From Roseimaritima ulvae (GTDB lineage Bacteria; Planctomycetota; Planctomycetia; Pirellulales; Pirellulaceae): a DNA stretch of 64,000 bases. Below, piece by piece: positions 1-57,700 of the stretch. The notes beneath the pieces are model-generated. The model made no database searches. It was not told the origin of the DNA and saw only the letters and a program-made list of their open reading frames with translations. The stretch spans positions 7,173,404-7,237,403 of the forward strand of contig NZ_CP042914.1 in assembly GCF_008065135.1 (NCBI RefSeq), given 5' to 3'. A program made the position numbers and the translations under genes. Within the stretch, counting starts at the first letter, position 1, and every line of letters begins with the position of its first letter.

Positions 1-2379
1 GCGGACAAGCTGGATGCTTACTGGCGGGCGTTGAACTACCTGTCCGTTGGTCAGATCTACCTGCTCGATAACCCGCTGCTGACCGAACCGCTGCGCCGCG
101 AGCACATCAAACCGCGGTTGCTGGGACACTGGGGCACGTCGCCGGGTTTGAACATGTTATGTGTTCACATGAACCGCGTGATCAAACGCGACGATTTGAA
201 CATGATCTATATCATCGGCCCCGGACACGGCGGCCCCTCGCTGGTAGCCCACGCCTATCTGGAAGGCACCTACAGCGAAATCTATCCGGACATCAGCCAA
301 GACGCCGAAGGCATGCAGCGGCTGTTCAAACAGTTCAGTTTCCCCGGCGGCATTCCCAGCCATGTGGCGCCCGAGACGCCCGGCAGTATTCACGAAGGCG
401 GTGAACTCGGTTACGCGCTCAGCCATGCCTACGGTGCGGCATTTGACAATCCGGATTTGATTGTCTCCTGCGTGGTCGGTGATGGCGAAGCCGAAACCGG
501 CCCCCTGGCCACCGGATGGCACGGCAATAAATTCCTTAATCCGGCCCGCGATGGCGCCGTCCTGCCGATCCTGCATCTGAACGGTTACAAGATCGCTAAC
601 CCTTGTTTCTTGGCTCGCATTCCCAAAGCGGAACTATCCAAGCTGTTCGAAGGCATGGGCTACAAGCCGTACTTCGTCGAAGGCAGCGACCCCGCGGCGG
701 TTCACCAGCAATTGGCCGCCGTGATGGATACCGCGACCGCCGAAATCAAACAGATCTGGGCCGATGCCCGCTCCGGCGGTGATGTCACTCGACCGGCCTG
801 GCCGATGATTGTCTTCCGCACGCCCAAAGGCTGGACCTGCCCCGCCGAAATCGATGGCAAGAAATGCGAAGGCTATTGGCGAAGCCACCAGGTGCCGATG
901 AGCGATATGGACAACGAAGAACATATTCGCATCCTCGAACAATGGATGAACAGCTACCGCCCGCGGGAACTGTTTGACGAGGATGGCCGCCTGATCCCCG
1001 AACTTGCTGAATTGGCCCCCCAAGGCCATCGCCGCATGAGCGACAACCCGCACGCCAACGGTGGGCTGCTGATGCGCAACCTGAAACTGCCGGACTTCCG
1101 CGACTACGCCGTGGACGTGCCCAGCCCCGGCACCACGATTGCCGAATCCGCTCGAGTAATGGGCAGCTATCTGCGCGATGTCATGCAGCGGAACATGGAC
1201 AGCCGTAACTTTCGCTTGTTCAGCCCCGACGAGAACAACTCCAATCGCTGGCAGGACGTGCTGGAAGTCACCAACCGCTGCTACATGGCGGACATCTATC
1301 CCGAAGACGATCATCTATCGCCCGATGGTCGTGTCATGGAAGTGCTCAGCGAGCATCAATGTCAGGGCTGGTTGGAAGGCTACCTGCTGACCGGACGGCA
1401 CGGTTTCTTCTCCTGCTATGAAGCCTTCATTCACATCATCGATTCGATGTTCAACCAGCACGCCAAGTGGTTGAAAACGTGTAACCACATTCCCTGGCGG
1501 CGGCCCATCGCATCGCTGAACTATTTCCTCAGCTCCCACGTTTGGCGACAGGACCACAACGGCCTGAGTCATCAGGATCCGGGCTTCATCGATCACGTGG
1601 TCAACAAAAAGGCCGAGGTGATCCGCATCTACCTGCCGCCGGACGCCAACTGCCTGCTGTCGGTCACCGAGCACTGCCTGCGCAGCCGCAACTACGTCAA
1701 CGTGGTGGTTTCGGGCAAGCAACCCGAACCGCAGTGGCTGACCATGGACCAAGCCATCAAACACTGTTCGGCCGGACTGGGCATCTGGGAATGGGCCAGC
1801 AACGACATCGGTTCGGAACCCGACGTGGTGATGGCTTGCTGTGGCGATGTGCCAACGCTGGAAACGCTGGCCGCCGTCGACCTGCTGCGGACGCATTTGC
1901 CGGAATTAAAAGTTCGCGTGATCAATATCGTCAACCTGATGAAGTTGCAGCCTGACAGCGAGCACCCGCACGGGTTGTCCGATCACGACTTTGACGCCCT
2001 GTTCACCAAAGACAAGCCGATCATCTTTGCCTTCCACGGCTATCCCTGGTTGATCCATCGACTGACCTACCGGCGGACCAATCACCGAAACCTGCACGTC
2101 CGCGGTTACAAAGAAGAAGGCACGACCACGACGCCTTTTGACATGGTGGTGATGAACGAAATCGATCGTTTTCATTTATGCGAAGACGTCATCGATCGCC
2201 TGCCGCAACTGGGCGCCCGGGCCGCGTACTTCAAGCAAAAAATCCACGAAAAGCTGATCGATCACAAGCAGTACGTCGAGCGTTACGGCGACGACATGCC
2301 GGAGATCAGCGGCTGGACCTGGGGACATCGCCCCACCACCGGACCGCTGCGCACCTCCACCGAAGGAGACAACGTGTGA
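1..2379 (+). CDS. xfp: Phosphoketolase (X5P/F6P), 5' end outside window
   Basis: Thiamine-diphosphate enzyme that splits xylulose 5-phosphate or fructose 6-phosphate with phosphate into acetyl-phosphate plus glyceraldehyde 3-phosphate or erythrose 4-phosphate in the cytosol. The frame is open from base 1: the codons before the TTG at 31 read [10 protein letters not shown], which fits the family N-terminus, so the gene begins to the left and probably only some 20 residues are missing. Family blocks seen in order are [35 protein letters not shown], the TPP-binding [41 protein letters not shown] and the C-terminal [16 protein letters not shown]. Nothing is broken. Acetate kinase lies 5.4 kb downstream on the same strand, which supplies the usual next step (acetyl-phosphate to acetate with ATP). 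Identity is very secure; whether X5P or F6P is preferred cannot be read from the sequence. Confidence 0.97.
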
Positions 2380-2500: not shown

Positions 2501-3223
2501 ATGAGTACAACCAAGCAAGCAAACATCAGCCTGGCCGATGAGGACGCGGTCAAGGAAGTGCTTTCCGAAGCCGTGTTGGGCTTGTGGGAGGTGGTCAATA
2601 GCTTGACCCGACTGCGTCCATCCAAGAAAGATCGCTACCGCGTGACGATTTTTGGTTCGGCTCGCGTGCAGCCCGGCACCTTCGGCTACGAAGAAACCAA
2701 ACGCTGCGCCGCGGCCTTGGCGGAAATGGGCTGTGACATCATCACCGGAGGCGGTCCCGGGTTGATGCAGGCTGCCAACGAGGGCGCGTCGAGTGCACCG
2801 GAGCGAGCCAAGTCGATCGGGATCCGGGTCGACCTGCCCTTCGAACAGGAAATCAATACGTTCGTCAACCAAACCTTCGAACACCGCACGTTCTTCACAC
2901 GCCTGCATCAATTTGTACTGACCTCCGATGCCTTCGTGGTGGCTCCCGGCGGGATCGGCACCGTCTTGGAAACGCTGATGGTGTGGCAGCTGCTACAAGT
3001 GCACCACCTCAACGACACCCCGCTGATCCTGGTCGGCGACATGTGGCCGGGATTAGTTGAATGGGCCAGGACCTCGATGCTGTCCGCCGATTCGCCCCTG
3101 GCTAGCCCCGAGGACATGAACATCCCGCAATGTGTGGACAACGCCGAACAAGCTCTGGCCGTTATTGAGAAACACCGCGCGGCGTGGCTGCAAAACCAGG
3201 ACGACAAACCGAACCCGTCATAA
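2501..3223 (+). CDS. LOG-family (TIGR00730-like) nucleotide-binding protein
   Basis: A 240-residue Rossmann-fold protein of the lysine-decarboxylase-like/LOG family. Members that have been tested are often nucleoside 5'-monophosphate phosphoribohydrolases that release a free base. Seen: a helical N-terminal extension (about residues 1-45), then TIFGSARVQPG, the glycine-rich ITGGGPGLMQAANEG, and the family signature PGGIGTVLETLMVWQ near residue 150. The ATG at 2501 is 121 bases after the phosphoketolase stop and is the first good in-frame start. It lies between phosphoketolase and a receptor kinase on the same strand, so co-expression is plausible. Its substrate and its role in this carbon/energy cluster are not evident; the family assignment is firm, the enzymatic activity is inference. 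Confidence 0.85.
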   Translation: MSTTKQANISLADEDAVKEVLSEAVLGLWEVVNSLTRLRPSKKDRYRVTIFGSARVQPGTFGYEETKRCAAALAEMGCDIITGGGPGLMQAANEGASSAPERAKSIGIRVDLPFEQEINTFVNQTFEHRTFFTRLHQFVLTSDAFVVAPGGIGTVLETLMVWQLLQVHHLNDTPLILVGDMWPGLVEWARTSMLSADSPLASPEDMNIPQCVDNAEQALAVIEKHRAAWLQNQDDKPNPS

Positions 3224-3327: not shown

Positions 3328-5655
3328 ATGTCATCAGACGAAAAAAATTCAATCGACCAACCTGATGACCGGGAAGTCGCTGCGGACGAACAGCTGGGAG
3401 AAACCCACAGTCTGGCCGCCGCTTCGGGCGATACCGCGCCGATTGCGCCTAGCAACCGCCCGGTGCAGGACTGGGTCGGCAAGACGCTGGGCAAATACCA
3501 GATCACCGGCGTGCTGGGACAAGGCGGCATGGGGACGGTCCTGCGGGCACACGATCCCACCTTAGAACGCGACGTGGCGATCAAAATTCTGGCCGAACAT
3601 TTGGCCGCCAATCCCACGGCTCTTGCTCGCTTTCAATCGGAAGCCAAGGCGGCGGGAAAACTGAGTCATGCCCACGTGGCAGCGATCCATGAAATCGGGC
3701 AGGACGGCGCGTGCCACTACCTGGTCATGGAATTGCTGACCGGTGGCAGTGTGGCGGCCGAAATCCAGTCCCACGGCGCGTCCACTCCGCTGCAAGCCAC
3801 TCGCACCATGATCGACGCCTGCCAGGGTATCGCCGCCGCACACGCCGCAGGTCTGATCCACCGCGACATCAAACCAGCCAACCTGGTTCGTGCCGCAGAC
3901 GGCGCGGTCAAATTGACCGATTTCGGCTTGGCCAAACTATCGGCGGCCAACTCGGGTCTGCAACTGACCCAAACCGGCACGGTGATCGGAACGCCGTACT
4001 TCATGAGTCCCGAACAATGCCAGAGCCATGACGTCGATGCGCGCACCGACATCTATGCCCTGGGTGCGACCTACTACTGTCTGTTGACCGGCCGCCAGCC
4101 GTACGACGAATCCGACAGTGTGGTGCAGGTGATGTACGCCCACTGCAACAAGGACATTCCCGATCCGCGCGAGGTCGACGCGTCGATCCCGGCCGCCTGT
4201 GCAGCGATCGTTCAACGCGCCATGGCCAAAGCTCCGGACGATCGCTATCCGTCCGCCGAGGTTATGTTGCGGGACTTGCAAACCGTCACCGCGACGCTGT
4301 CAGGTGCCACGCCCATCGATCTGCCCAGCCTTTCGGGAACGACTCGCCCGGCGATTGCGCCGACCGCACCGCAGGCTTGGCCTCGCTGGCTGGTCGGTGG
4401 CCTAGCCGGCCTGTTGTTGCTGTTGGTGATCGGTTTTTCGCTGCGAAGTTTCTTCTCCTCCTCGCCGCCGCTGACTCCGCAGGGCGAACCCATCAAGGTT
4501 GGTGTGCTGCAAGCGCTCAGCGGCACGATGTCGACCAGCGGGAACAGCGTGGTGGATGCCACGCTGCTGGCAATCGAAGAAATCAATCAAGCCGGCGGCC
4601 TGTTGGGTCGGCCCGTCCAAGCGGTTGTGGCCGACGGTCGCTCGAATACCGAAACTTTTGCGCAAGAAGCTCAGCGGCTGATCGTGGACGAACAGGTCAG
4701 CACGGTGTTTGGTTGCTGGACGTCCGCCTCTCGCAAAACCGTCCGACCGATTTTTGAACGCCACGATCACTTGCTGGTCTATCCCGTTCAATACGAAGGC
4801 ATGGAACTTTCACCCAACATTGTTTACATGGGAGCCGCCCCCAACCAGCAGATCATACCAGCCCTCTCCTGGGCCACCGAACAACTGCACAAGAGGCGGT
4901 TCTTCCTGGTCGGTTCCGATTATGTGTTTCCACGCACCTCCGGTCAGGTCATCAAAGACCAACTGCAGAACACTGAGGCGGAAATTGTCGGCGAACAGTA
5001 CGTGCCGCTGGGCAGCGCGCACTTCGAGTCGGTCGTAGAAGCGATTTTGGAAGCCAAACCGGACATGATCCTGAACACATTAAACGGGGACTCCAATGTG
5101 GCCTTCTTCCGCGAGCTGCGAAAAGCCGGCGTGCAGCGAGATGCCATCCCCTGCTTGTCCTTCAGTATCGGCGAACAGGAACTGCGCAGCTTGAATATCG
5201 CCGATATCGAAGGCGACTACGCGGCTTCGACGTATTTCCAATCGCTCGATACCGAAGCCAACCGAGCCTTCGTCGCCCGTTTTAAAGCCAAACACCCCCA
5301 TCGCGTGATTTCGGATCCCATGCAGGACGCCTACGTGGGAGTTCACCTGTGGGCGCAGGCGGTGCGAGAAACGCAGAGCACCGATCCCAAACAGATCCGC
5401 CGGGCAATGCGGGGCCAACGCATCACCGCACCCGAAGGCGATATCCGCATCGATCCCGAAACCCAGCATTGTTTTAAAACCCCGCGTGTGGGCCAAATTC
5501 GCGGCGATGGACAATTCCAGATCGTCTGGAGTGCCGACCAACCGCTGGCTCCCGAACCGTATCCCGCCAGCCGCACGGCCGCAGACTGGAAAGCCTTCCT
5601 ACACGATCTGTACGTCGGCTGGGGGAACCAGTGGATGTCCCGTGCAACCGATTGA
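3328..5655 (+). CDS. Transmembrane Ser/Thr kinase fused to a UrtA-like urea/amide-binding domain
   Basis: A 775-residue fusion. Residues about 55-320 are a Hanks-type Ser/Thr kinase with glycine loop GQGGMG (65-70), VAIK lysine 86, HRDIKPAN with catalytic Asp180, DFG Asp198-Gly200 and GTPYFMSPEQ. A Pro/Ala linker leads to one membrane segment (about 354-371). Residues about 388-765 are a complete periplasmic-binding fold of the UrtA/AmiC group, with SGTMSTSGNSVVDATLLAIE, FGCWTSASRK (461-470), YPVQYEG (485-491) and NTLNGDSN (583-590), close to urea ABC transporter binding proteins. Topology should put the kinase in the cytoplasm and the binding domain outside the inner membrane, so it reads as a one-protein receptor for urea or a short amide. 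No urtBCDE genes are in the window. It begins 104 bases after the LOG gene and ends 12 bases before glgX, which suggests shared transcription with glycogen breakdown. Domain calls are firm; ligand and targets are inferred. Confidence 0.93.
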   Translation: MSSDEKNSIDQPDDREVAADEQLGETHSLAAASGDTAPIAPSNRPVQDWVGKTLGKYQITGVLGQGGMGTVLRAHDPTLERDVAIKILAEHLAANPTALARFQSEAKAAGKLSHAHVAAIHEIGQDGACHYLVMELLTGGSVAAEIQSHGASTPLQATRTMIDACQGIAAAHAAGLIHRDIKPANLVRAADGAVKLTDFGLAKLSAANSGLQLTQTGTVIGTPYFMSPEQCQSHDVDARTDIYALGATYYCLLTGRQPYDESDSVVQVMYAHCNKDIPDPREVDASIPAACAAIVQRAMAKAPDDRYPSAEVMLRDLQTVTATLSGATPIDLPSLSGTTRPAIAPTAPQAWPRWLVGGLAGLLLLLVIGFSLRSFFSSSPPLTPQGEPIKVGVLQALSGTMSTSGNSVVDATLLAIEEINQAGGLLGRPVQAVVADGRSNTETFAQEAQRLIVDEQVSTVFGCWTSASRKTVRPIFERHDHLLVYPVQYEGMELSPNIVYMGAAPNQQIIPALSWATEQLHKRRFFLVGSDYVFPRTSGQVIKDQLQNTEAEIVGEQYVPLGSAHFESVVEAILEAKPDMILNTLNGDSNVAFFRELRKAGVQRDAIPCLSFSIGEQELRSLNIADIEGDYAASTYFQSLDTEANRAFVARFKAKHPHRVISDPMQDAYVGVHLWAQAVRETQSTDPKQIRRAMRGQRITAPEGDIRIDPETQHCFKTPRVGQIRGDGQFQIVWSADQPLAPEPYPASRTAADWKAFLHDLYVGWGNQWMSRATD

Positions 5656-5667
5656 ATCGGACATGAT

Positions 5668-7752
5668 ATGACACAAGCCAACCTGATCGGTCAAAGTTCG
5701 CCCCTGGGCGCCACCGTCGTGGAGGGCGGCGTCAACTTCAGTCTCTTCTCGCGGACGGCCACGTCCGTCGAATTGCTGTTGTTCGATCACACCGACGCCG
5801 CAGCCCCCGCACGTGTGATTCCGATCAAGCCCAAATCGAATCGGACCTATCACTACTGGCATACCTTTGTTCCCGAAATCCATGCCGGGCAACTGTATGG
5901 TTATCGCGTGCACGGCCCCTGCGATCCCGGCCGGGGAATCCGCATGGATGCGAACAAAGTTCTGCTGGATCCCTACGGCCGTGGCGTGGTCGTGCCCACG
6001 GGATACGATCGTGAGGCGGCGTCAGAACCCGGCGACAACGCGGCCACCGCGCTGAAGAGCGTCGTCGTCGATCCGGCAGCATACGATTGGGAAGGTGATC
6101 AACCGCTACAGCGAGCGGCATCGCAAACGATTATTTACGAGATGCACGTGCGTGGGTTCACGCGTCACCCCAGTTCCGGCATCGAAGAATCCAAACGCGG
6201 AACCTACGCCGGTCTGATTGAGAAAATTCCGTACCTAAAACAACTCGGGATCACCGCTGTCGAACTGCTGCCGGTCTTCCAGTTTGACGCAGGCGATGCA
6301 CCTCGGGGAAAAATCAACTACTGGGGCTACGCGCCGATTTCGTTCTTCGCGCCCCATGCCGCCTACAGTTCTGGACAGCAACCGTTGGCCGCGGTCGATG
6401 AATTTCGCGACATGGTCAAAGCCCTGCACCGGGCGGGCATCGAAGTCATTCTAGACGTGGTCTTCAATCACACCGCCGAAGGCGACCAACGGGGTCCGAA
6501 GCTGTGTTTTCGCGGCGTCGACAACCCCACCTACTACATGCTGGAAAACGGCGGCGAGCGTTACGCGAATTACTCCGGTTGCGGCAACACGGTCAACGCC
6601 AATCACCCCATCGTGCGCCGAATGATCGTCGACAGCCTCCGCTATTGGGTGCAAGAGATGCACGTCGACGGCTTTCGCTTTGACCTGGCATCCATCCTGT
6701 CACGCGATCCGGCGGGACATCCGCTGCCCAATCCTCCGGTGCTTTGGGACATCGAATCCGATCCGGCGCTGGCCGGCACTAAACTGTTGGCCGAAGCTTG
6801 GGACGCGGCCGGGCTGTATCAGGTGGGCAGCTTTGTCGGTGACGCCTGGCGAGAATGGAATGGCCGCTTCCGAGACGACGTCCGCGACTTCTTTCGCGGC
6901 CAACCAGGTTCCGTCAGACGGGTCGCGGACCGGATTGTCGGCAGCCCCGAAATCTATGGGCACAAAGAACGCGAAGCGGAACAGAGCGTCAACTTTGTGA
7001 CCTGCCACGACGGTTTTACCCTGAACGATCTGGTTTCCTACAACGGCAAACACAACGAGGACAACGGCGAACAAAATCGCGACGGCGGCGACGACAATCG
7101 CAGCTGGAATTGCGGCGTCGAAGGCCCCAGCGACGCCCCTCAGGTGACCGCCCTCCGCGACCGCCAGGTGAAAAACTTTCTCACCACCACGCTGTTATCC
7201 CTGGGCGTTCCGATGATCCTAATGGGCGACGAAGTTCGCCACACCCAGCGCGGTAACAACAACGCCTACTGCCAGGACAATGAACTCAGTTGGTTCGATT
7301 GGTCCAATCTGGATCGGCACGCGGACCTGCGACGCTTTGTGTCCCTGCTGTGCGCACGCCGCATGCTTCGCAATGTCGATCCTGATCGCCAGCGGATCAG
7401 CGTGATCCGTTTGCTGCGTGAAGCGAACAAGGCATGGCACGGCGTGCGGTTGCATCAGCCCGATTGGGGCGACGCCTCTCACTGCATCGCCTTTGGTGGC
7501 GAATTACGCCGCGCGGGTCTGCGTTTTCATCTAATCCTAAACGCTTACTGGGAACCGCTGGAATTTGAACTACCGGAATTGGATCACGGTCGCTGGCGGC
7601 GGTGGATCGACACCGGATGCGAGTCTCCCGATGACATCGTTCCCTGGGAACAGGCACCACAAATCAGCGGTAACTCATATCGTGCCATCGATCGTTCGGT
7701 TGTGATGCTGTACGCCAACACGAACCAGCCGGAAGGAGTTGGTAACGAATGA
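5668..7752 (+). CDS. glgX: Glycogen debranching enzyme GlgX (isoamylase type)
   Basis: Hydrolyses alpha-1,6 branch points of phosphorylase-limited glycogen. At 694 residues it has the normal GlgX length. An N-terminal CBM48-like domain (about 1-120, starting GQSSPLGATVVEGGVNFSLF) is followed by a GH13 barrel. Catalytic blocks are seen: DVVFNHTAEG, nucleophile region DGFRFDLASIL, acid/base region KLLAEAWDAAG and NFVTCHDGFTLNDLVSYN, then GDEVRHTQRGNNNAYCQDNE typical of this group. ATG at 5668 is 12 bases after the kinase stop. The last codons overlap the ackA start by 4 bases, so the two are translationally coupled. With glgP at 9148 it completes glycogen mobilisation. No defects are visible. 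Confidence 0.96.
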   Translation: MTQANLIGQSSPLGATVVEGGVNFSLFSRTATSVELLLFDHTDAAAPARVIPIKPKSNRTYHYWHTFVPEIHAGQLYGYRVHGPCDPGRGIRMDANKVLLDPYGRGVVVPTGYDREAASEPGDNAATALKSVVVDPAAYDWEGDQPLQRAASQTIIYEMHVRGFTRHPSSGIEESKRGTYAGLIEKIPYLKQLGITAVELLPVFQFDAGDAPRGKINYWGYAPISFFAPHAAYSSGQQPLAAVDEFRDMVKALHRAGIEVILDVVFNHTAEGDQRGPKLCFRGVDNPTYYMLENGGERYANYSGCGNTVNANHPIVRRMIVDSLRYWVQEMHVDGFRFDLASILSRDPAGHPLPNPPVLWDIESDPALAGTKLLAEAWDAAGLYQVGSFVGDAWREWNGRFRDDVRDFFRGQPGSVRRVADRIVGSPEIYGHKEREAEQSVNFVTCHDGFTLNDLVSYNGKHNEDNGEQNRDGGDDNRSWNCGVEGPSDAPQVTALRDRQVKNFLTTTLLSLGVPMILMGDEVRHTQRGNNNAYCQDNELSWFDWSNLDRHADLRRFVSLLCARRMLRNVDPDRQRISVIRLLREANKAWHGVRLHQPDWGDASHCIAFGGELRRAGLRFHLILNAYWEPLEFELPELDHGRWRRWIDTGCESPDDIVPWEQAPQISGNSYRAIDRSVVMLYANTNQPEGVGNE

Positions 7753-8987
7753 ACCTGCTGATACTGAATGCGGGCTCAAGCAGTCTGAAATGCACTCTGA
7801 TGGATGCGGAACAGGACGCCGTGCTCGCCCGCGGCATGGCGGACTGGGCGGGAGCCGAAACCCAATATCGCTATCAAGGCCCTGAGCATAACGAGAACAC
7901 CGAACACACCGGTCGCGGCAACCACGCCGACCCCGTGCAAGTCGATTGGAAGGGGCACGCCGCCGCGGTCCGTCGGTTTATCTCCGACCTGCAACACGTC
8001 GAACCGCTGGCCTTGCCGGATCCATCGTCGCTGGTCGCCGTTGGACATCGGATCGTTCATGGCGGCGAATTTACTTCTTCGGTTCGCATCACGGCCGAAG
8101 TGCGCTCACGGATCGCGGCCCTGGCCGAATTGGCGCCGCTGCATAATCGGCCCAGCCTGGAAACGCTGGCGGCGGCCGAAGCGGAACTGCCGCGGGTGCC
8201 GCACATCGCCGTCTTCGACACCACCTTCCATGCCAGCTTGTCGCCCGAGGCCTTCACGTATCCGATTCCCCATCAGTGGACCCAGCGATGGGGAATCCGG
8301 CGTTACGGCTTTCACGGGCTCAGCCACGCCTATTGCGCCCGCCGCGCCGCGGAGATGTTGAATCGCCCGGCGAGCGATTTGCGACTGGTGATCTGCCATC
8401 TGGGACACGGTTGTTCGGCCGCCGCCGTGCGGGGAGGCCGCAGCGTCGACACCACCATGGGCTTCACGCCCCTGGAAGGATTGATGATGGCCACCCGCAG
8501 CGGTTCGATCGATCCGGAAATCGTGGCCTACATGCAGCATCATCAGGGACTGAGCGCCGAACAAGTCGAACATGCTCTCCAACGGGAATCCGGTTTGTGG
8601 GGCGTCTCGGGCGTTTCGGCGGACATGCGCGAAGTGTTGGCGGCGGCCCAAAGCGGTCACCAACAATCTCGGCTGGCGGTGGCAATCTACACACGGCGAA
8701 TCCGACAAGCCGTGGGAGCTTTCGCCGTCACGATGGGCGGCATCGATGCGTTGGTGTTCACCGCCGGAGTGGGGGAACACGCCGCCGAGGTCCGGGCTTC
8801 GGTTTGCGATGGGCTGGAGTGTCTGGGTTTGGAACTGGACGCCCAAGCCAACGCAACATGCCAACCGGACGCCGACATCGCCCTGCCCCACTCACCGGGC
8901 CGCATCCTGATCATCTCCACCCGAGAAGACCTCACGATCCTGCGTGAAGTCCGCGACGTGCTTTCCACTAACCCACTAACCAACTAA
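7749..8987 (+). CDS. ackA: Acetate kinase
   Basis: Interconverts acetyl-phosphate + ADP and acetate + ATP. The protein is 412 residues, the usual length. ASKHA-family acetate kinase blocks are present: NAGSSSLKC at the N-terminus, VGHRIVHGG, FDTTFHASL, RYGFHGLSHAYCARRAAE, HLGHGCSAAAVRGGRSVDTT, MGFTPLEGLMMATRSGSIDP and FTAGVGEHAAEVRA. The start overlaps the glgX stop (ATGA). Because a phosphoketolase gene sits in the same block and no phosphotransacetylase is visible here, the simplest role is ATP formation from phosphoketolase-derived acetyl-phosphate. An insertion around residues 50-75 (an His/Asn-rich stretch after WKG-like sequence) makes the N-terminal domain slightly longer than in enteric enzymes. 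Confidence 0.97.
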   Translation: MNLLILNAGSSSLKCTLMDAEQDAVLARGMADWAGAETQYRYQGPEHNENTEHTGRGNHADPVQVDWKGHAAAVRRFISDLQHVEPLALPDPSSLVAVGHRIVHGGEFTSSVRITAEVRSRIAALAELAPLHNRPSLETLAAAEAELPRVPHIAVFDTTFHASLSPEAFTYPIPHQWTQRWGIRRYGFHGLSHAYCARRAAEMLNRPASDLRLVICHLGHGCSAAAVRGGRSVDTTMGFTPLEGLMMATRSGSIDPEIVAYMQHHQGLSAEQVEHALQRESGLWGVSGVSADMREVLAAAQSGHQQSRLAVAIYTRRIRQAVGAFAVTMGGIDALVFTAGVGEHAAEVRASVCDGLECLGLELDAQANATCQPDADIALPHSPGRILIISTREDLTILREVRDVLSTNPLTN

Positions 8988-9111
8988 GGACTTATCCGCA
9001 AATAAGGTACCCGATTAGCCGTAACGCGCTAGCGTCCGGTTCCCACAACAACCGTGTGCTAGCGCACTTCGGCTGATACGCGATGAAGTAGTTTATTTGT
9101 GGCCAAGTCCT
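8987..9111. repeat. Nested inverted-repeat element between ackA and glgP
   Basis: A 125-base intergenic element with two nested pairs of inverted arms. The outer arms, 8987-9005 (AGGACTTATCCGCAAATAA) and 9093-9111, match in inverted orientation with about four differences. The inner arms, 9017-9033 (AGCCGTAACGCGCTAGC) and 9058-9074, also match in inverted orientation with three differences. The transcript could fold into one long hairpin. It begins at the last base of the ackA stop codon and ends 36 bases before the glgP start, so it may act as an attenuator or RNA-stability element, or may simply be a miniature mobile repeat. There is no T-run for a standard terminator. Confidence 0.75.
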
Positions 9112-9147
9112 ACAGCGCTCCCTCGTCCCCAAAACCAAGGCAATGTC

Positions 9148-11640
9148 ATGAGCGATACAGCGACCAAGCGAAACGTCAAATCTTACGCCTGCGGCACCGC
9201 GGACTTTACCGACGACGCGGGACAAGAGTGCTACCAGCGGCACCTGATGTACGATCACGTCGTACCGTCCCATGAGGCCAGTCAGCGGGAACGTTTTGAG
9301 GCGGTCGCCCGTTCGCTCCGCGATCTGCTGACCCAGCGATGGTTGCTGACACAACAAACCCACGATCAAGAAAATCCTAAGCGTGTTTACTATCTGTCGA
9401 TGGAGTTTCTGATCGGTCGGGCGTTGTCCAACAATATTATCAATCTGGGCATTGAGCCGTTTGTTCGGCGGGAACTGCAAGCCGATCCGCGTCAGGACTG
9501 GCAGGAAGTTATCGAGACCGAACCGGATGCCGGGTTGGGCAACGGCGGCCTGGGGCGTCTGGCCGCTTGCTTCATCGAATCGCTAGCCACATTGCAAATC
9601 CCCGCTATGGGCTACGGACTGCGATACGAGTACGGCATCTTTCGTCAGACGATTGAAAACGGCTTCCAAATGGAGCAACCCGATCACTGGCTGGCAGAAG
9701 GCGACCCCTGGGAAGTCGCTCGACCACGCCAGACGGTTCAGATCCCGGTGGGCTGCCGATTTGAACTGCATGATGGGGTGCTCCGCGCCGCCCCCGGTCA
9801 CACCACACACCTGTTGGGCGTTCCCTATGATCGGCCCGTGGTTGGCTACGGTGGCCGGACCATTAACACGCTGCGACTGTGGGGCGCCGCATCGCCGGAC
9901 TTCTTTGACTTTGGCGAGTTCAGTTCGGGCGATTTTGTGGGTGCGATCGTCGACAGCATTTTGGCCGAGACAGTCACTCGGGTCTTGTACCCCGATGATT
10001 CCACCCGAGCCGGCCAGGCGCTGCGGTTTGTCCAGGAATACTTCTTGGTCGGCTGTTCGCTAGCCGACATCGTGGCCCGCTTCCGTCGCGGAAACGATGA
10101 TTGGCAAATGCTTCCCGAGAAAGTCGCCATCCAAATGAATGACACCCACCCGGCGATGGCGGTGGCCGAGTTGATGCGGATCCTGCTGGATGAAGCTCAG
10201 CTGGGATGGGACGAGGCCTGGGACCTGACCGTCCGCACCCTGGCCTATACCAATCACACGCTGTTGCCCGAGGCGTTGGAAAAGTGGCCGGTACGATTTT
10301 TTGAACTGGTCTGTCCACGGCTGTTGGAAATCGTCTTCGAAATCAACCGCCGGTTCCTCGCCGACGTTCAGCAGCGTTACCCCGACGACCCGCGGCGGGC
10401 AGCCGGCATGAGTCTGATCGAGGAAGACGGCGAACGGCAGATTCGGATGGCGAACCTGGCCATCGTCGGATCACATAGCACCAACGGTGTGGCTCAGATT
10501 CATTCCGATTTGCTGCGCACGCGGGTGGTGGCCGATTTTGCGGAGATGTTCCCCCAGCGGTTTAACAACAAGACCAACGGCGTCACGCCGCGTCGCTGGT
10601 TGCTGGCCGCCAATCGCGACCTAGCGGAATTGATTACCGAATCGATCGGCGACGGCTGGGTCACCGACCTGAGTGAATTGCGGCAGTTGCTGCCGCTGGC
10701 CGACGATGCGGCGTTCCGCCAGCGATTTTGGGAAACCAAGCAAACGGCCAAGACACGCTTTGCCCAGTGGCTGCAAACCAGTACCGGGCAGGTCGTCGAT
10801 CCCAACTCGATTTTCGACAGCCAGATCAAGCGGATTCACGAATACAAGCGGCAGTTGCTGAACATCCTGCACGTCGTCGTGCTCTACAACCGGCTGCGTG
10901 AGAATCCAGCGTTGGAGATCCCGTCGCGGACGTTCTTCTTTGCCGGCAAGGCGGCGCCGGCCTATCAGTTGGCCAAACTAATCATCAAGCTGATCAATAA
11001 CGTTGGCCGCGTGATCGACGAAGACCCGGCTTCGGCAGGCCGCATCAAGGTGGCTTTTGTACCCAACTACAACGTGTCCTTAGCCGAACGGCTGATCCCC
11101 GCCAGCGACGTGTCGGAACAGATTTCCACGGCCGGTTACGAAGCCAGCGGCACGGGCAACATGAAGTTCATGATGAACGGGGCCCTGACCATCGGCACGC
11201 GCGACGGAGCCACGATCGAAATGGCCGAGGAAGCCGGCGAGGAAAACTTCTTCCTGTTCGGACTGACCGCCCAGCAAGTGGCGGATAGTCGCGGCTACTA
11301 CAACCCACACTGGCACTACCAAAACGAACCGGAAACCCGCGCGGCGTTGGACCTGATCTTCGGCGATCACTTCAGCCGCGACGAACCCGGCATCTTTACT
11401 CCCATTCGCGAAGCCCTATTGGATCGCGGCGACTACTTCATGCACCTGGCCGACCTGACCTCCTACGCCCAGGCTCAGCAACAACTAGGGCAGCTTTACG
11501 CCGACCGCGATGCCTGGACCCGCAAGGCGATCCTCAACGTGGCCTGCTCCGGAAAGTTTTCCAGCGACCGCACGATTGCCCAATATGCCGAAGAAATTTG
11601 GAATGCCGTGCCCTGCCCCGTAGCCGAAGGAGACAGCTGA
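9148..11640 (+). CDS. glgP: Glycogen phosphorylase
   Basis: PLP enzyme (GT35) that releases glucose 1-phosphate from alpha-1,4-glucan ends. It has 830 residues from the ATG at 9148. A longer in-frame TTG reading at 9097 runs through the upstream inverted repeat and is rejected. Seen: VYYLSMEFLIGRAL, DAGLGNGGLGRLAACFIES, GYGLRYEYGIFRQ, VAIQMNDTHPAMAVAELMR, NKTNGVTPRRWLLAANR, KRIHEYKRQLLNI and the cofactor-lysine block EASGTGNMKFMMNGALTIGT. Length and motifs are complete. It is the last glycogen gene of the block; the following ppk2 is separated by 209 bases containing an inverted repeat. Confidence 0.97.
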   Translation: MSDTATKRNVKSYACGTADFTDDAGQECYQRHLMYDHVVPSHEASQRERFEAVARSLRDLLTQRWLLTQQTHDQENPKRVYYLSMEFLIGRALSNNIINLGIEPFVRRELQADPRQDWQEVIETEPDAGLGNGGLGRLAACFIESLATLQIPAMGYGLRYEYGIFRQTIENGFQMEQPDHWLAEGDPWEVARPRQTVQIPVGCRFELHDGVLRAAPGHTTHLLGVPYDRPVVGYGGRTINTLRLWGAASPDFFDFGEFSSGDFVGAIVDSILAETVTRVLYPDDSTRAGQALRFVQEYFLVGCSLADIVARFRRGNDDWQMLPEKVAIQMNDTHPAMAVAELMRILLDEAQLGWDEAWDLTVRTLAYTNHTLLPEALEKWPVRFFELVCPRLLEIVFEINRRFLADVQQRYPDDPRRAAGMSLIEEDGERQIRMANLAIVGSHSTNGVAQIHSDLLRTRVVADFAEMFPQRFNNKTNGVTPRRWLLAANRDLAELITESIGDGWVTDLSELRQLLPLADDAAFRQRFWETKQTAKTRFAQWLQTSTGQVVDPNSIFDSQIKRIHEYKRQLLNILHVVVLYNRLRENPALEIPSRTFFFAGKAAPAYQLAKLIIKLINNVGRVIDEDPASAGRIKVAFVPNYNVSLAERLIPASDVSEQISTAGYEASGTGNMKFMMNGALTIGTRDGATIEMAEEAGEENFFLFGLTAQQVADSRGYYNPHWHYQNEPETRAALDLIFGDHFSRDEPGIFTPIREALLDRGDYFMHLADLTSYAQAQQQLGQLYADRDAWTRKAILNVACSGKFSSDRTIAQYAEEIWNAVPCPVAEGDS

Positions 11641-11849: not shown

Positions 11850-12656
11850 ATGTCCAAAAACCACTCCCACGCGCCGAAAAAAATGAAACGCAAAGACTAC
11901 GAAAAAGAACTGCGTAGACTGCAGGCGGAAGTCTGCAAGCTGCAGGAATGGGTCAAGCACAAGGGCTTGCGGGTGATCGTCATCTTTGAAGGTCGCGACG
12001 CTGCGGGCAAAGGCGGCACCATCCGGGCGCTCACCGAACGCGTCAGCCCTCGCGTGTTTCGCACCGTCGCGCTGCCCGCGCCGTCGGACCGCGAAAAATC
12101 GCAAATGTACATCCAACGCTACATGGCCCACTTCCCCGCCGCCGGCGAAGTCGTGATCTTCGACCGCAGTTGGTACAACCGCGCCGGTGTGGAACCGGTG
12201 ATGGGATTTTGCACGGCTGAACAGCACCAGCGTTTTCTGGAACTCTGTCCGGTGGTCGAAAAATACATCACCGATGGCGGCATCCAGCTGATCAAATTCT
12301 GGTTGGAGGTCGGCGACGAAGAACAGAAACGGCGGTTCGAAGCTCGTATCAGTGACCCGCTGCGGCAATGGAAACTGAGTGCGATGGACTTGCCCTCGCG
12401 GAGCAAGTGGTTCGAGTACTCCAGGGCCCGCGACAGGATGCTGGAAGCTACCGACACCGAGCACGCGCCGTGGTACATTCTGCCCTCCGATGACAAACGT
12501 CGCGCCCGGCTGAACTGCATCGATCATCTGCTCAGTTTGATCCCCTACGAAGATGTTCCCCGCGACGAGATCAAACTTCCCAAACGTTCGATGAAGGGAA
12601 AGTACGACGATTCGGCGTCGCTGGAAGGGCGGCAGTTCGTGCCATCACGCTACTAA
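11850..12656 (+). CDS. ppk2: Polyphosphate kinase 2 (class I-like)
   Basis: PPK2-family enzyme that transfers phosphate between polyphosphate and nucleoside diphosphates, mostly regenerating GTP/ATP from polyphosphate. It has 268 residues with one domain. The N-terminal helix is Lys/Glu-rich (residues 1-35). Walker A-type FEGRDAAGKGGTIRAL lies near residue 48, the lid region follows, and Walker B-type VVIFDRSWYNRAGVEPVMGF near residue 105. The single domain and the length fit class I. Start ATG at 11850. It follows the glycogen genes and lies 33 bases before a GltS-type carrier gene; the context suggests a second high-energy reserve handled beside glycogen, which is inference. Confidence 0.94.
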   Translation: MSKNHSHAPKKMKRKDYEKELRRLQAEVCKLQEWVKHKGLRVIVIFEGRDAAGKGGTIRALTERVSPRVFRTVALPAPSDREKSQMYIQRYMAHFPAAGEVVIFDRSWYNRAGVEPVMGFCTAEQHQRFLELCPVVEKYITDGGIQLIKFWLEVGDEEQKRRFEARISDPLRQWKLSAMDLPSRSKWFEYSRARDRMLEATDTEHAPWYILPSDDKRRARLNCIDHLLSLIPYEDVPRDEIKLPKRSMKGKYDDSASLEGRQFVPSRY

Positions 12657-12689: not shown

Positions 12690-13910
12690 ATGGAAGAATT
12701 TGTCGTCAAAGGTCCCGACCTGATTATCGGAGCCATCGCGGTGCTGGCCGTGGGTGCCGCGATCACCAAACGGGTCGATGTGCTCAGCCGCTTCAGCATT
12801 CCCATCGCGGTCACCGGAGGCTTGCTGTGCAGCATCCTGGTGGCGGTTGTCGGAGCCTTCGGCGGCCCCAAAATCACCTTTGACATGGCCCTTCGTGACA
12901 CGCTGTTGATGGTCTTCTTCACCACCATCGGCATCTCCGCAAAATTCTCGCGACTCAAAGCCGGCGGCAAAGCGTTGGGAATCTTGGTGGCCTGCGCAGG
13001 GATCTTTCTGGTCGTGCAAAACGGCACCGGTGTGCTGCTGGCCAAGGCCTTCGGCGTGCACCCGGGCTATGGGCTGTTCTCGGGCAGTGTCTCCTTGGCG
13101 GGCGGCCACGGTACGGCCATCGCTTGGGGGCAGGAAGCCGACGCTGCTGGACTGCCCAACGCCGGCCTGATCGGCATCGCCTTCGCCACCTTCGGTCTGG
13201 TCGCCGGCGGCATCGTTGGCGGCCCCGTCGCCGAACGTTTGATCAAAAAACATAATCTGACACCGGAGGACTCTCATACCGCGGCGACCGGCGATTCCGA
13301 ATCGCCGGAACCGCTCCGGCCTTACTCCCTGGAACGCGCGCTGAGTGTGATGTTGGTGCTGGCCGTTTGCCTGTCGTTTGGCGAAATCATCAATCGTTGG
13401 CTGTTTTCCAACAACATCAAACTGCCGGGCTTTCTGACCGCCATGCTGGTCGGCATCCTGATCACCAATTTGGCCGATAAATTGCAGCGGTCTCTGGAGG
13501 TAAAGGTTTACGACAAGGTCGGCGAAGTCGCGTTGCAATTGTTCCTGGCAATGAGCTTGATGAGCATGGACCTGTCGTCGCTGGCCGGCGCCTTCAGCAC
13601 CATCTTTGTGGTGCTGTGTGTGCAGATCTTGGTGATCTCGTTGTTTGCCGTGTTTGTGATCTTTCGAGCCATGGGATCGAACTACGACGCGGCCGTGATC
13701 GCCGGTGGCTTCTGCGGGCTGGGCATGGGCGCCACGCCGGTCGCGATCGCCAACATGAACGCCATCACCGCCAAACATGGAGCCTCGTTCAAAGCCTTTC
13801 TGACGATCCCCTTGGTGGGCGCGTTTTTTATCGACCTGCTGAATGCCATGGTGATCAAGTTCTTCATCGGCCTGCCGATGCTGCAACAGGCACCGCTGCC
13901 GGGCAGCTGA
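12690..13910 (+). CDS. gltS: Sodium/glutamate symporter, GltS family
   Basis: Integral inner-membrane carrier of 406 residues, the usual GltS length, expected to import glutamate with Na+. Two homologous halves of hydrophobic helices are separated by a charged cytoplasmic linker (about residues 185-210, rich in Glu/Ser). Family motifs include IPIAVTGGL near residue 35, FFTTIGISAKFSRL, the re-entrant loop GSVSLAGGHGTAIAWG, and the second-half pair LFLAMSLMSMDL and GFCGLGMGATPVAIANMNAI. It starts 33 bases after ppk2, so probably the same transcript. Substrate is inferred from family. Confidence 0.92.
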   Translation: MEEFVVKGPDLIIGAIAVLAVGAAITKRVDVLSRFSIPIAVTGGLLCSILVAVVGAFGGPKITFDMALRDTLLMVFFTTIGISAKFSRLKAGGKALGILVACAGIFLVVQNGTGVLLAKAFGVHPGYGLFSGSVSLAGGHGTAIAWGQEADAAGLPNAGLIGIAFATFGLVAGGIVGGPVAERLIKKHNLTPEDSHTAATGDSESPEPLRPYSLERALSVMLVLAVCLSFGEIINRWLFSNNIKLPGFLTAMLVGILITNLADKLQRSLEVKVYDKVGEVALQLFLAMSLMSMDLSSLAGAFSTIFVVLCVQILVISLFAVFVIFRAMGSNYDAAVIAGGFCGLGMGATPVAIANMNAITAKHGASFKAFLTIPLVGAFFIDLLNAMVIKFFIGLPMLQQAPLPGS

Positions 13911-54715: not shown

Positions 54716-57700
54716 ATGAAGATGTCTCATCAAGATAGCACCCGGGGATGCGAATCGACCGGGCTACAATTTCGATGTCCCAGCTGCAAACTGGCCAACC
54801 CCATCGCTGAGAGTAGCGATCTTGGGAAGGTTGCGTGCAGTGGGTGCGGAGAAGTGGTCAACCTAATCGGTCATGACGAAACGCGAAGCCTTGATGGCTC
54901 GGTTGGCAGAAGTATTGGTCACTTTGAGATGACCGAGCGGCTGGGAATGGGAGCATTTGGGGCCGTCTACAAGAGTCGAGATCATATGCTCGACCGCTGG
55001 GTAGCGATCAAGCTGCCCCGTCGAGGCCAGCTCTCGTCCTCCGAATCGGAAAAGTTTCTACGTGAGGCTCGCACCGCTGCCCAACTGAGTCATCCGAACA
55101 TTGTCAGCGTTTTCGAAGTGGGGCGAGACGGTGAACAAGTCTACATCGTGTCGGACTACATTGAGGGCGTCACGTTAGCCGATTGGCTGACCGCCAAACC
55201 TTTTCAACAACGCGACGCGGCCAAGCTATGCGTCAAGCTCTGCAGAGCCCTTGATTATGCTCACCGCTGCGGTGTGGTGCATCGGGACCTAAAGCCCGCC
55301 AACATCATGATGAACGCAGAGGGTGAGCCGCATATTATGGATTTTGGATTGGCAAAGCGGGACAGCGGCGAATTAACCATGACGCTCGAGGGGCAAGTCC
55401 TTGGATCGCCAGCGTATATGCCGCCCGAGCAAGCATCCGGAAACTCTCACACAGTCGACAATCGCGGTGACATTTATGCCCTCGGTGTGATCCTGTTCCA
55501 GTTGCTCACGTTAGAATTACCCTTTCGTGGCAACTCCGCCATGCTGCTGCATCAAGCCCTCCACGATGAACCACCCAGTCCTCGAAAGTTTAACGCGACC
55601 CTATCGCGAGACCTGGAAACGATCTGCCTAAAGTGTCTCGAAAAAAATCCGTCGCGACGCTTTGCGACGGCCAACGACTTGGCGGACGAATTGCAGCGTT
55701 TTCTCGACGGCCGGCCAATCCAAAGTCGACGGATCACCCAGGTAGAGCGAGCCTATCGTTGGGGCACTCGAAACCGTGTCCTCGCCGGCATGTTGCTCGC
55801 CTTTGTGGCTTCACTGCTGTTCGGAAGCATTGGTTCGGCAACCTTTGGATGGCTGGCGCTGCGAGAGTCCTGGCGTGCCGATGAGAGGGCGGCTTATGCC
55901 ACCAAACAGGAACAGATAGCTGCCGAACACGCGAAGGAAGCTTCCTTGCGGTCGGACCAAGCTCAACGAGTGGCGTTTTACTCACAAGCGGAATCCTCGT
56001 TGGCTCGGGGGCGATACGCCCAGGCCTTCGAGTTGAATCAGCGACTCGCCAGACAAAACCCTCGCTGGGATTACGGTTACCAAACCAGTCGATTGATTGA
56101 TGCACTCGACACAAAACGAAAGCTGATTGCCAATTTCCCCTGCCCACAAAAACCGATTTGGGCGACTCTAAATGACGGCATCCTGTTGTACCAGGAACCA
56201 AGCCCATCGCTGCGCGTGTCTGCCTACGACGTTTGGACGGACCAAATCCTTGCCTCAGTGGACGCCGCCGTGCAATGGTCGCAGGTGACTCCCGTTTCCG
56301 GCGATCAATGGATTGGAATTGCCGAAGACCAAGTGCTGACCGGTGACTTGGAAACGCTTCAAATCCAGGACTCCCTGCCTTTAAAACACTCCTCGCTTGC
56401 TCCGCCGGCAGATTCCGTCTCGCTCGAAAAAGAAATTTCGATCGTCGGTGCGCTCCACGCCAATCGCGCTGCCGTACTCTATCCCGACGGGCTGGTGGAA
56501 TTATACGATACGAAACCGCTGCAGAAACGAAGTGAATTCCAACTCAAGAATCTCAAACCGTCACAACATTCCTCCTGGTTCCAACTCTCGAACGATGGCA
56601 AGCGATTGGTCTACAAGGTTGGACAACAGGGAACCTATTTGTACGACGTTGAGCAAAACAAAGGCGTGATTTCAAAACACGACACAACGCACACTATTCA
56701 ATTCGGAACCGACCCGGACAATCTGTTTGGCATGATGTACAAGTCGAACCTGACGGACTTCATGTATTTCCAGAGGCGGCGTTGGCAGGATTCTCGCAGC
56801 GGTCCACCGTCACTTACATCGATCGGTAAGAACAAATTTGTCCGCGGCATCGGCGTCACCGGCGAACTGCTCGACATGCATGCTGGGGGTGCATCGAGCA
56901 TGGAGGAAAGTATCGTAACGCTTCGATACGAGGACAACTTGAGTACGTTTAGGGTGTCGGCACCGGATGCCGGCGAGACGCTTGCCTTTGCAGACATGTG
57001 CCCCCAGGCTGGAGCCTCCGCAACGGTGGTCGCACACGACTTAGCCGATGGCCTCGTCGTATTCCACACCGGTGGTTCGCTTCAGGCTTACCTGGTTCGG
57101 CTGCTCGCCAAACCCGCTGATGCCAATCCCGTACCACCTGTCTTGCAGGCGTCACCGAGGGGTTTTTGCGGTACGGAAAACCGATTGTTTATTGCCAACA
57201 CCAGGTCCGAACCCGTTTGGTTCGATCTCGCAACGGAAACGACTAGCCCTTGTCCGCTGGAACGACCGCCAACATCACCTGGGCGAATGATGTCGGTGTA
57301 TGACGCCAAGCTTAGTAGCGATACGGAAACGCTGTTAGTTTTGTGGAATGAAAACGACTATTTTGGATACGGGGCTGCAAATTTTTTCGGCTTGCAACTC
57401 GCTGCATACGATCTTTCCGGCGGACTAAACGAACAAGGTCAGATTCCGATAAAAACGCTCATCACATGTCCAACGGTCGGTGATAGCGCGGGACAGGGGT
57501 GGAGGGGGACGGGCATCTCATCGGACGGAACGACTGGTATCTACATCTACGGCGAAGCTGGCCCCGAGTCAATCCAAGTCGAGATCTACGACCTTTCTAC
57601 GGGAAAGCGAACTGCGGCCCTGGAACCGCAACAGTTTGTCCGCGTCGACGACAGCGGCGACTGGCTGCTGACGTATTCAATGGACAAGGTCGCACCGGTG

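Follow-up and report, generated by a model that had tools for sequence, protein, structure and literature searches.

The window, that is, the whole 64,000-nucleotide stretch of Roseimaritima ulvae DNA analyzed here (NZ_CP042914.1, positions 7,173,404 to 7,237,403), encodes a protein that probably works as a single-pass receptor Ser/Thr kinase, with a cytoplasmic kinase and a periplasmic venus-flytrap domain that would bind a small amide, most likely urea, and whose closure would alter kinase activity via the connecting helix. The open reading frame starts with an ATG and extends over 775 codons free of internal stops. It comprises the following parts:

3328..5655, plus strand: receptor Ser/Thr kinase (kinase, single membrane helix, UrtA-type domain, C-terminal tail; 775 aa), from the ORF, Pfam, NCBIfam, AlphaFold2, and Foldseek
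3496..4266, plus strand: Hanks kinase domain, residues 57–313, from Pfam, the alignment of 29 fusions, and Foldseek
4387..4455, plus strand: single membrane helix, residues 354–376, from the AlphaFold2 helix and a hydrophobic stretch in the sequence
4492..5571, plus strand: UrtA-type binding domain, residues 389–748, with W464, S466, Y485, Q488, E490, Y532, F534, N586, and S613 forming the pocket, from Pfam, alignment, and Foldseek
5572..5634, plus strand: C-terminal tail, residues 749–769 (R749, W754, W765, W769), typical of the signaling clade described below, from alignments

Architecture of the receptor kinase

Pfam places Pkinase at residues 57–313 (E = 3.6e-43) and Peripla_BP_5 at residues 389–748, covering positions 1–360 of the 363 in the profile (E = 4.8e-148). 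Six residues of the kinase domain, K86, E105, D180, N185, D198, and E229, which we take to be the catalytic Lys, the Glu, the HRD Asp, the Asn, the DFG Asp, and the APE-site Glu, are invariant across 29 aligned fusions. An AlphaFold2 model computed from the same 29 aligned fusions (mean pLDDT 81.2) lays out the kinase, one helix at residues 354–376, the binding domain, and a C-terminal helix at residues 751–764, with the relative placement of kinase and binding domain poorly predicted (pTM 0.55). The first-ranked Foldseek match is 8tg1, a urea-binding protein from Caldicellulosiruptor (49% identity, TMt 0.95), followed by three UrtA-urea entries (42–44% identity) and then AmiC (31% identity), and the top-ranked kinase match is PknB. 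The preliminary description had read this single ORF as a Hanks kinase joined by one membrane helix to a complete UrtA/AmiC-type binding domain, and Pfam, AlphaFold2, and Foldseek all agree with that layout. Judged by its sequence, the protein is a Hanks-type Ser/Thr kinase with a helix between kinase and sensor, for which phosphotransfer is predicted.

A fusion created by sequencing error, a weakness that the same description had allowed for, is not what we found: both domains are nearly full length and kinase–binding domain fusions occur at 46 further loci, which rules out a frameshift or assembly artifact and brings the total to 47 distinct loci including the window. Some such proteins bear the NCBI name “bifunctional serine/threonine-protein kinase/ABC transporter substrate-binding protein.” In a search of plasmids, no record matched 80% of the receptor kinase at a single place. 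Against the PASTA kinase model NF033483, the protein scores 303 bits (cut-off 450) and matches with its kinase part only (profile positions 7–270 of 563), and it was therefore not assigned to that family. N-terminal to the kinase, at residues 24–36, lie threonine motifs of the form ET...GDT that are present in many of the aligned fusions; threonine motifs ahead of a kinase domain are possible phosphothreonine docking sites.

The urea-type pocket

PMC10392092, which describes a UrtA-urea structure, names nine residues near urea (W120, S122, Y141, Q144, E146, Y190, F192, N246, and S274) and reports little effect of mutating Phe192. With this Prochlorococcus UrtA as pocket reference, all nine of the contact residues named there are kept in the window protein, as W464, S466, Y485, Q488, E490, Y532, F534, N586, and S613, so that the loss of ligand-contact residues, which the preliminary description had held out as a point against itself, has not occurred. 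The nearest orthologs (loci L071–L074) likewise keep all nine. At the corresponding positions, AmiC has Y S Y P E Y Y V T, compared with W S Y Q E Y F N S in the window protein; by this alignment reading, five of nine places differ, and the pocket was not classed as AmiC-type.

Across the family the pocket is less uniform. It is complete in 30 of the 47 kinase fusions, namely, 25 of 33 in a first set (from which L092 and L096 were dropped as repeats of another row's contig) and five of 14 in a second set, while the other 17 have at least one pocket residue altered, suggesting that ligands differ within the family. Among close orthologs, position 586 changes from Asn to Val or Ala in L075, L032, L077, and L076, and Q488 is altered in L032 and L076; L076 and L077, both linked to glgX, carry Ala at this urea-bonding Asn position. 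Given the Val or Ala at N586 in these four, ligand identity is predicted to drift among family members. For the window protein, the residues present make urea the likeliest ligand, and a urea-type sensor facing outside is likely. Six other loci with binding proteins paired to dCache-type sensors (L089, L045, L105, L108, L109, and L117) share a common pocket change (Q144A, F192W, N246V in UrtA numbering), hinting at a different ligand in that subgroup.

A signaling sister clade of UrtA

The NCBIfam UrtA model TIGR03407 scores the window protein at 471.7 bits, just below its cut-off of 492.75. In a tree of 118 binding domains, the window domain falls into a clade of 56 rows (SH-aLRT 99), which consists of 33 kinase fusions, 22 proteins adjoining dCache-type sensors, and one row that is unreadable (L122, whose contig ends just behind the gene). 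A second large clade (59 rows, support 96) is made up of 53 free proteins and six rows labeled as histidine kinase fusions. Within the tree, this label was assigned by ORF length alone to L111, L114, L115, L116, L120, L132, and L167; L043 and L044 were scanned for domains. UrtB lies next door above cut-off in six of 10 canonical-clade members scanned (12 listed). These loci were picked by similarity and are not a random sample, and this tree, like the kinase tree below, is a quick search with SH-aLRT support only and long branches for some rows (L088, L042, L044).

The second set repeats this division: none of its 14 kinase fusions has a dCache neighbor, and each of the seven non-fused relatives is accompanied by a same-strand dCache-type sensor (in L226, which has two copies, the sensor of one copy sits past the other). 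Both sets together thus comprise 47 kinase fusions without an adjoining dCache-type sensor and 29 non-fused members near one, seven of which match by construction because the dCache profile was built from their loci; Pfam dCache_1 scores in an early scan were mostly below the gathering score. The domains matched in 28 partner proteins were HAMP (25), dCache_1 (24), HATPase_c (14), MCP signal (8), SpoIIE (3), and GGDEF (1). A scan of the contigs of relatives, covering the best 80 of 595, found kinase fusions in four of those 80, two of them on contigs already in the set.

A C-terminal tail with W765 and W769 is found in 55 of the 118 rows: 33 kinase fusions, 19 proteins with dCache neighbors, and three with neither (L159, L046, L047). 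Three dCache neighbors lack it (L113, L150, L162). In the second set, 20 of 21 members have the tail, the exception (L219) being cut by a contig end. The window protein has both traits of the clade, its position in the tree and the tail.

The sister clade appears to consist of binding proteins that moved from transport to signaling. The UrtA-type ligand domain of the preliminary description stands insofar as the urea pocket is intact, but the domain belongs to the signaling sister clade and not to transporter UrtA. It shares with UrtA the fold, all nine pocket residues, and the sequence identities given above; it differs in its fusion to a kinase, its tail, its separate clade, its score under the TIGR03407 cut-off, and the lack of an UrtB match above cut-off in this genome, and the last three rule out assignment as a transporter UrtA. 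Nor is it a free secreted binding protein, as kinase and helix precede it in one ORF.

Several loci, among them L093, L095, L102, L103, L045, L105, and L112, pair a UrtA-like binding protein whose N-terminus is hydrophobic with a neighboring dCache-HAMP sensor whose last domain is of the histidine kinase, MCP, SpoIIE, or GGDEF type; these look like a family of binding protein–sensor pairs spread over several phyla. At L043 and L044, hybrid histidine kinases carry a UrtA-type domain within their first 20 residues, which is perhaps a cytoplasmic amide sensor.

Kinase lineages

A kinase tree was built from 46 fused kinases (L090, which is partial, was left out), 40 further kinases from this genome, and five from relatives. 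The fused kinases form about four lineages with non-fused kinases between them: one of 32 that includes the window (support 99), one of three, one of five with L085 nearby, and another of five. The starred branches of the tree force only two such lineages. In the first set, the binding domains of the 33 fusions group together (support 93). The likeliest history would be one signaling binding domain whose kinase was swapped several times.

The glycogen-to-acetate gene cluster

The receptor gene stands between the second and third of the following genes, all on the plus strand:

31..2379, plus strand: xfp phosphoketolase, the cluster start, whose true start may precede the window (ORF, family models)
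2501..3223, plus strand: LOG-type Rossmann protein, Pfam Lysine_decarbox, TIGR00730 below cut-off (family models)
5668..7752, plus strand: glgX, the kinase-linked glycogen debranching enzyme paralog (family models, genome comparison)
7749..8987, plus strand: ackA acetate kinase, with a 4-base overlap with glgX (ORF, family models)
9097..11640, plus strand: glgP glycogen phosphorylase (ORF, family models)
11850..12656, plus strand: ppk2 polyphosphate kinase, in the same-strand run and perhaps on the same transcript (family models)
12690..13910, plus strand: gltS sodium/glutamate symporter, the last of the same-strand run (ORF, family models)

The 12 bases from the kinase stop codon to the start of glgX (TIGR02100, 718.2 bits, cut-off 640.9), and the proximity of ackA, glgP, and phosphoketolase, had been reported in the preliminary description and are borne out by the ORFs and family models. 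Promoter and terminator scans gave signals near shuffle level.

There are 10 close loci (the window, L071–L077, L032, and L094), nine of them readable downstream. In six of these nine (the window, L072, L073, L074, L076, and L077), glgX lies directly downstream, with a gap of 37 to 274 bases, measured to the match start, in the five other than the window; L071, L075, and L094 lack a glgX at that position. For the remaining 37 fusions, whose flanks are in some cases short, no glgX, glgP, ackA, or xfp match was seen alongside. The conserved linkage to glycogen genes that the preliminary description had looked to therefore holds for the six close loci but is ruled out as a family-wide trait. As far as the sequences go, the kinase–glgX link is real but narrow.

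The linked glgX itself is distinctive. Of the 15 carrier genomes examined, only six have a glgX with 74% or more identity to that of the window, always beside the kinase, and this confinement marks the kinase-linked glgX as a separate paralog. The remaining nine have glgX copies of at most 52% identity only; a further copy in genome G361 is 60% identical. The linked paralog is next to the kinase in a second family as well (G153, f7). G374, which holds the closest receptor (L071), and G191 keep the kinase and are missing the linked paralog.

Other neighbors were noted at individual loci. The LOG-type protein recurs near the kinase, upstream in L071–L074 and downstream in L075, even where glgX is absent. 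Just upstream of the kinase in L077 (11567–11830), a phosphoketolase piece matches only residues 695–782 and is perhaps a remnant of the xfp–kinase order. A protein with neurotransmitter-gated ion channel domains lies beside the kinase in G374 (L071, 10670–11866). In the cyanobacterium Scytonematopsis contorta (L093, 7447–9750), an amylo-alpha-1,6-glucosidase gene (glycogen debranching) is found just upstream of a binding protein of the signaling clade; this gene had no match at the other loci searched.

Urea use in carrier genomes

This genome contains no other Peripla_BP_5 match, and hence no second UrtA, and no family match for urease alpha, FmdA_AmdA (formamidase), or arginase. Neither UrtB nor urea carboxylase is found in it above cut-off: UrtB, the one transporter subunit besides UrtA that the search covered, gave a single match, of 34.5 bits (cut-off 250.3). 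Among 40 carrier genomes, this one included and some of them incomplete, no urease was found; the survey covers carriers only. The urease alpha model does match in four of the 40, with three scores above the Pfam cut-off, and no match spans more than 54 of its 121 positions. The four frames (L268–L271) encode large proteins with Amidohydro_3 and a beta-lactamase fold, in which Urease_alpha covers 47–54 of 121 positions and no urease model stands among the best 25 of the 74–93 NCBIfam families matched per protein, and they are not counted as urease. Should the sensor bind urea, the molecule would more plausibly act here as a cue from outside than as a nutrient; should it not, another amide would be sensed.

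Proposed mechanism and alternatives

In the mechanism that we favor, the periplasmic domain would bind a small amide, most likely urea, and its closure would be passed on by the helix to alter kinase activity, probably via a change in dimer geometry. The sensor would belong to a UrtA-family branch that serves signaling and not transport, and its ligand would more likely be an outside cue than a counted nutrient, given that no genes for urea use or import were found. The place of the gene among glycogen-to-acetate genes weakly suggests that the signal might bear on reserve use, through phosphorylation of the neighbors or through another regulator. The N-terminal Hanks kinase would face the cytoplasm, and the venus-flytrap domain at the C-terminus would project into the periplasm, an orientation that PMC11032199 also predicts for membrane Ser/Thr kinases of planctomycetes, which are single-span proteins with the kinase inside and an accessory domain outside.

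It is quite possible, if short of probable, that the protein is a general signaling receptor and that its glycogen neighbors reflect local gene order with no regulatory link. The 37 of 47 fusions outside the close clade lack the tested glycogen and acetate neighbors, the closest receptor (L071) has no adjoining glgX, and with 87 Pkinase matches in this genome a further kinase next to metabolic genes would be unremarkable; yet in every tested genome that has the linked glgX paralog, it adjoins this kinase, the second family (G153, f7) included. Somewhat unlikely, in our view, is that the domain responds to a different short amide or to some related compound, with the urea pocket being an inherited shape whose ligand drifts between orthologs. 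The changes at N586 and Q488 in close orthologs speak for it, as do the residues in which AmiC departs from UrtA at these and further positions and the failure to find urease in carriers, whereas the window protein and L071–L074 keep all nine pocket residues.

The carbon/nitrogen balance switch put forward in the preliminary description, in which urea sensed outside as a nitrogen source would lead the kinase to phosphorylate GlgX, GlgP, AckA, and Xfp and so set reserve use, now seems improbable. It could draw on the urea-type pocket, the operon-like spacing (12 bases, then a 4-base overlap), and the distinct glgX paralog seen only beside the kinase in six of 15 genomes. Its nitrogen-nutrient side is made doubtful by the search for urease in 40 carriers, which found none, and, in this genome, by the lack of urease alpha, a second UrtA, FmdA, and arginase and of UrtB and urea carboxylase above cut-off; its glycogen side conflicts with the kinase being present without the linked glgX in G374 and G191 and with a glycogen linkage not seen beyond the close clade. 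A wider proposal, unlikely when taken as a whole, is that a urea-binding branch left transport to become an exchangeable amide sensor for histidine kinases, chemoreceptors, SpoIIE phosphatases, and several Ser/Thr kinase lineages, reading urea as an outside cue where no urease is found and, here, controlling a dedicated GlgX paralog.

Relation to known systems

Returning to the receptor kinase that we favor, its kind is already known and its sensor type was not met in the literature searched, from which subscription papers are mostly absent; no report of a kinase fused to a UrtA-type sensor was found there. With PknB and the PASTA-type receptor kinases it shares the Hanks kinase, the single helix, and a sensor domain, but its sensor is a venus-flytrap small-molecule domain in place of PASTA repeats. 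AmiC, the short-amide receptor of the amidase operon, belongs to the same family and is likewise used in regulation and not in transport; it differs in its pocket and in binding AmiR, as the title of its structure entry states. AmiC/AmiR has a cytoplasmic antiterminator role. LuxP-LuxQ and TorT-TorS are pairs of binding protein and sensor in which a type I binding protein is used in signaling, as in the dCache-paired relatives, whereas the binding domain in the window lies within the kinase chain itself. The planctomycete kinases of PMC11032199 have a comparable single-span layout but differ in their accessory domains: its accessible part names WD40, TPR, sulfatase-modifying, and DUF1080 domains and no binding-protein domain, with the 307 architectures given in supplements.

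To our knowledge, ligands of bacterial receptor Ser/Thr kinases are known for few. The urea-bound solved homologs and the intact pocket make both ligand and kinase output directly testable here, and the occurrence of the same kind of binding protein beside several output types offers a natural series of one sensor with different signaling machines. Planctomycete genomes can hold many kinases, and the number of Pkinase matches in this one makes cross-talk possible. The window itself contains a second kinase domain, at about 54926–55672, within an open frame of 1434 aa.
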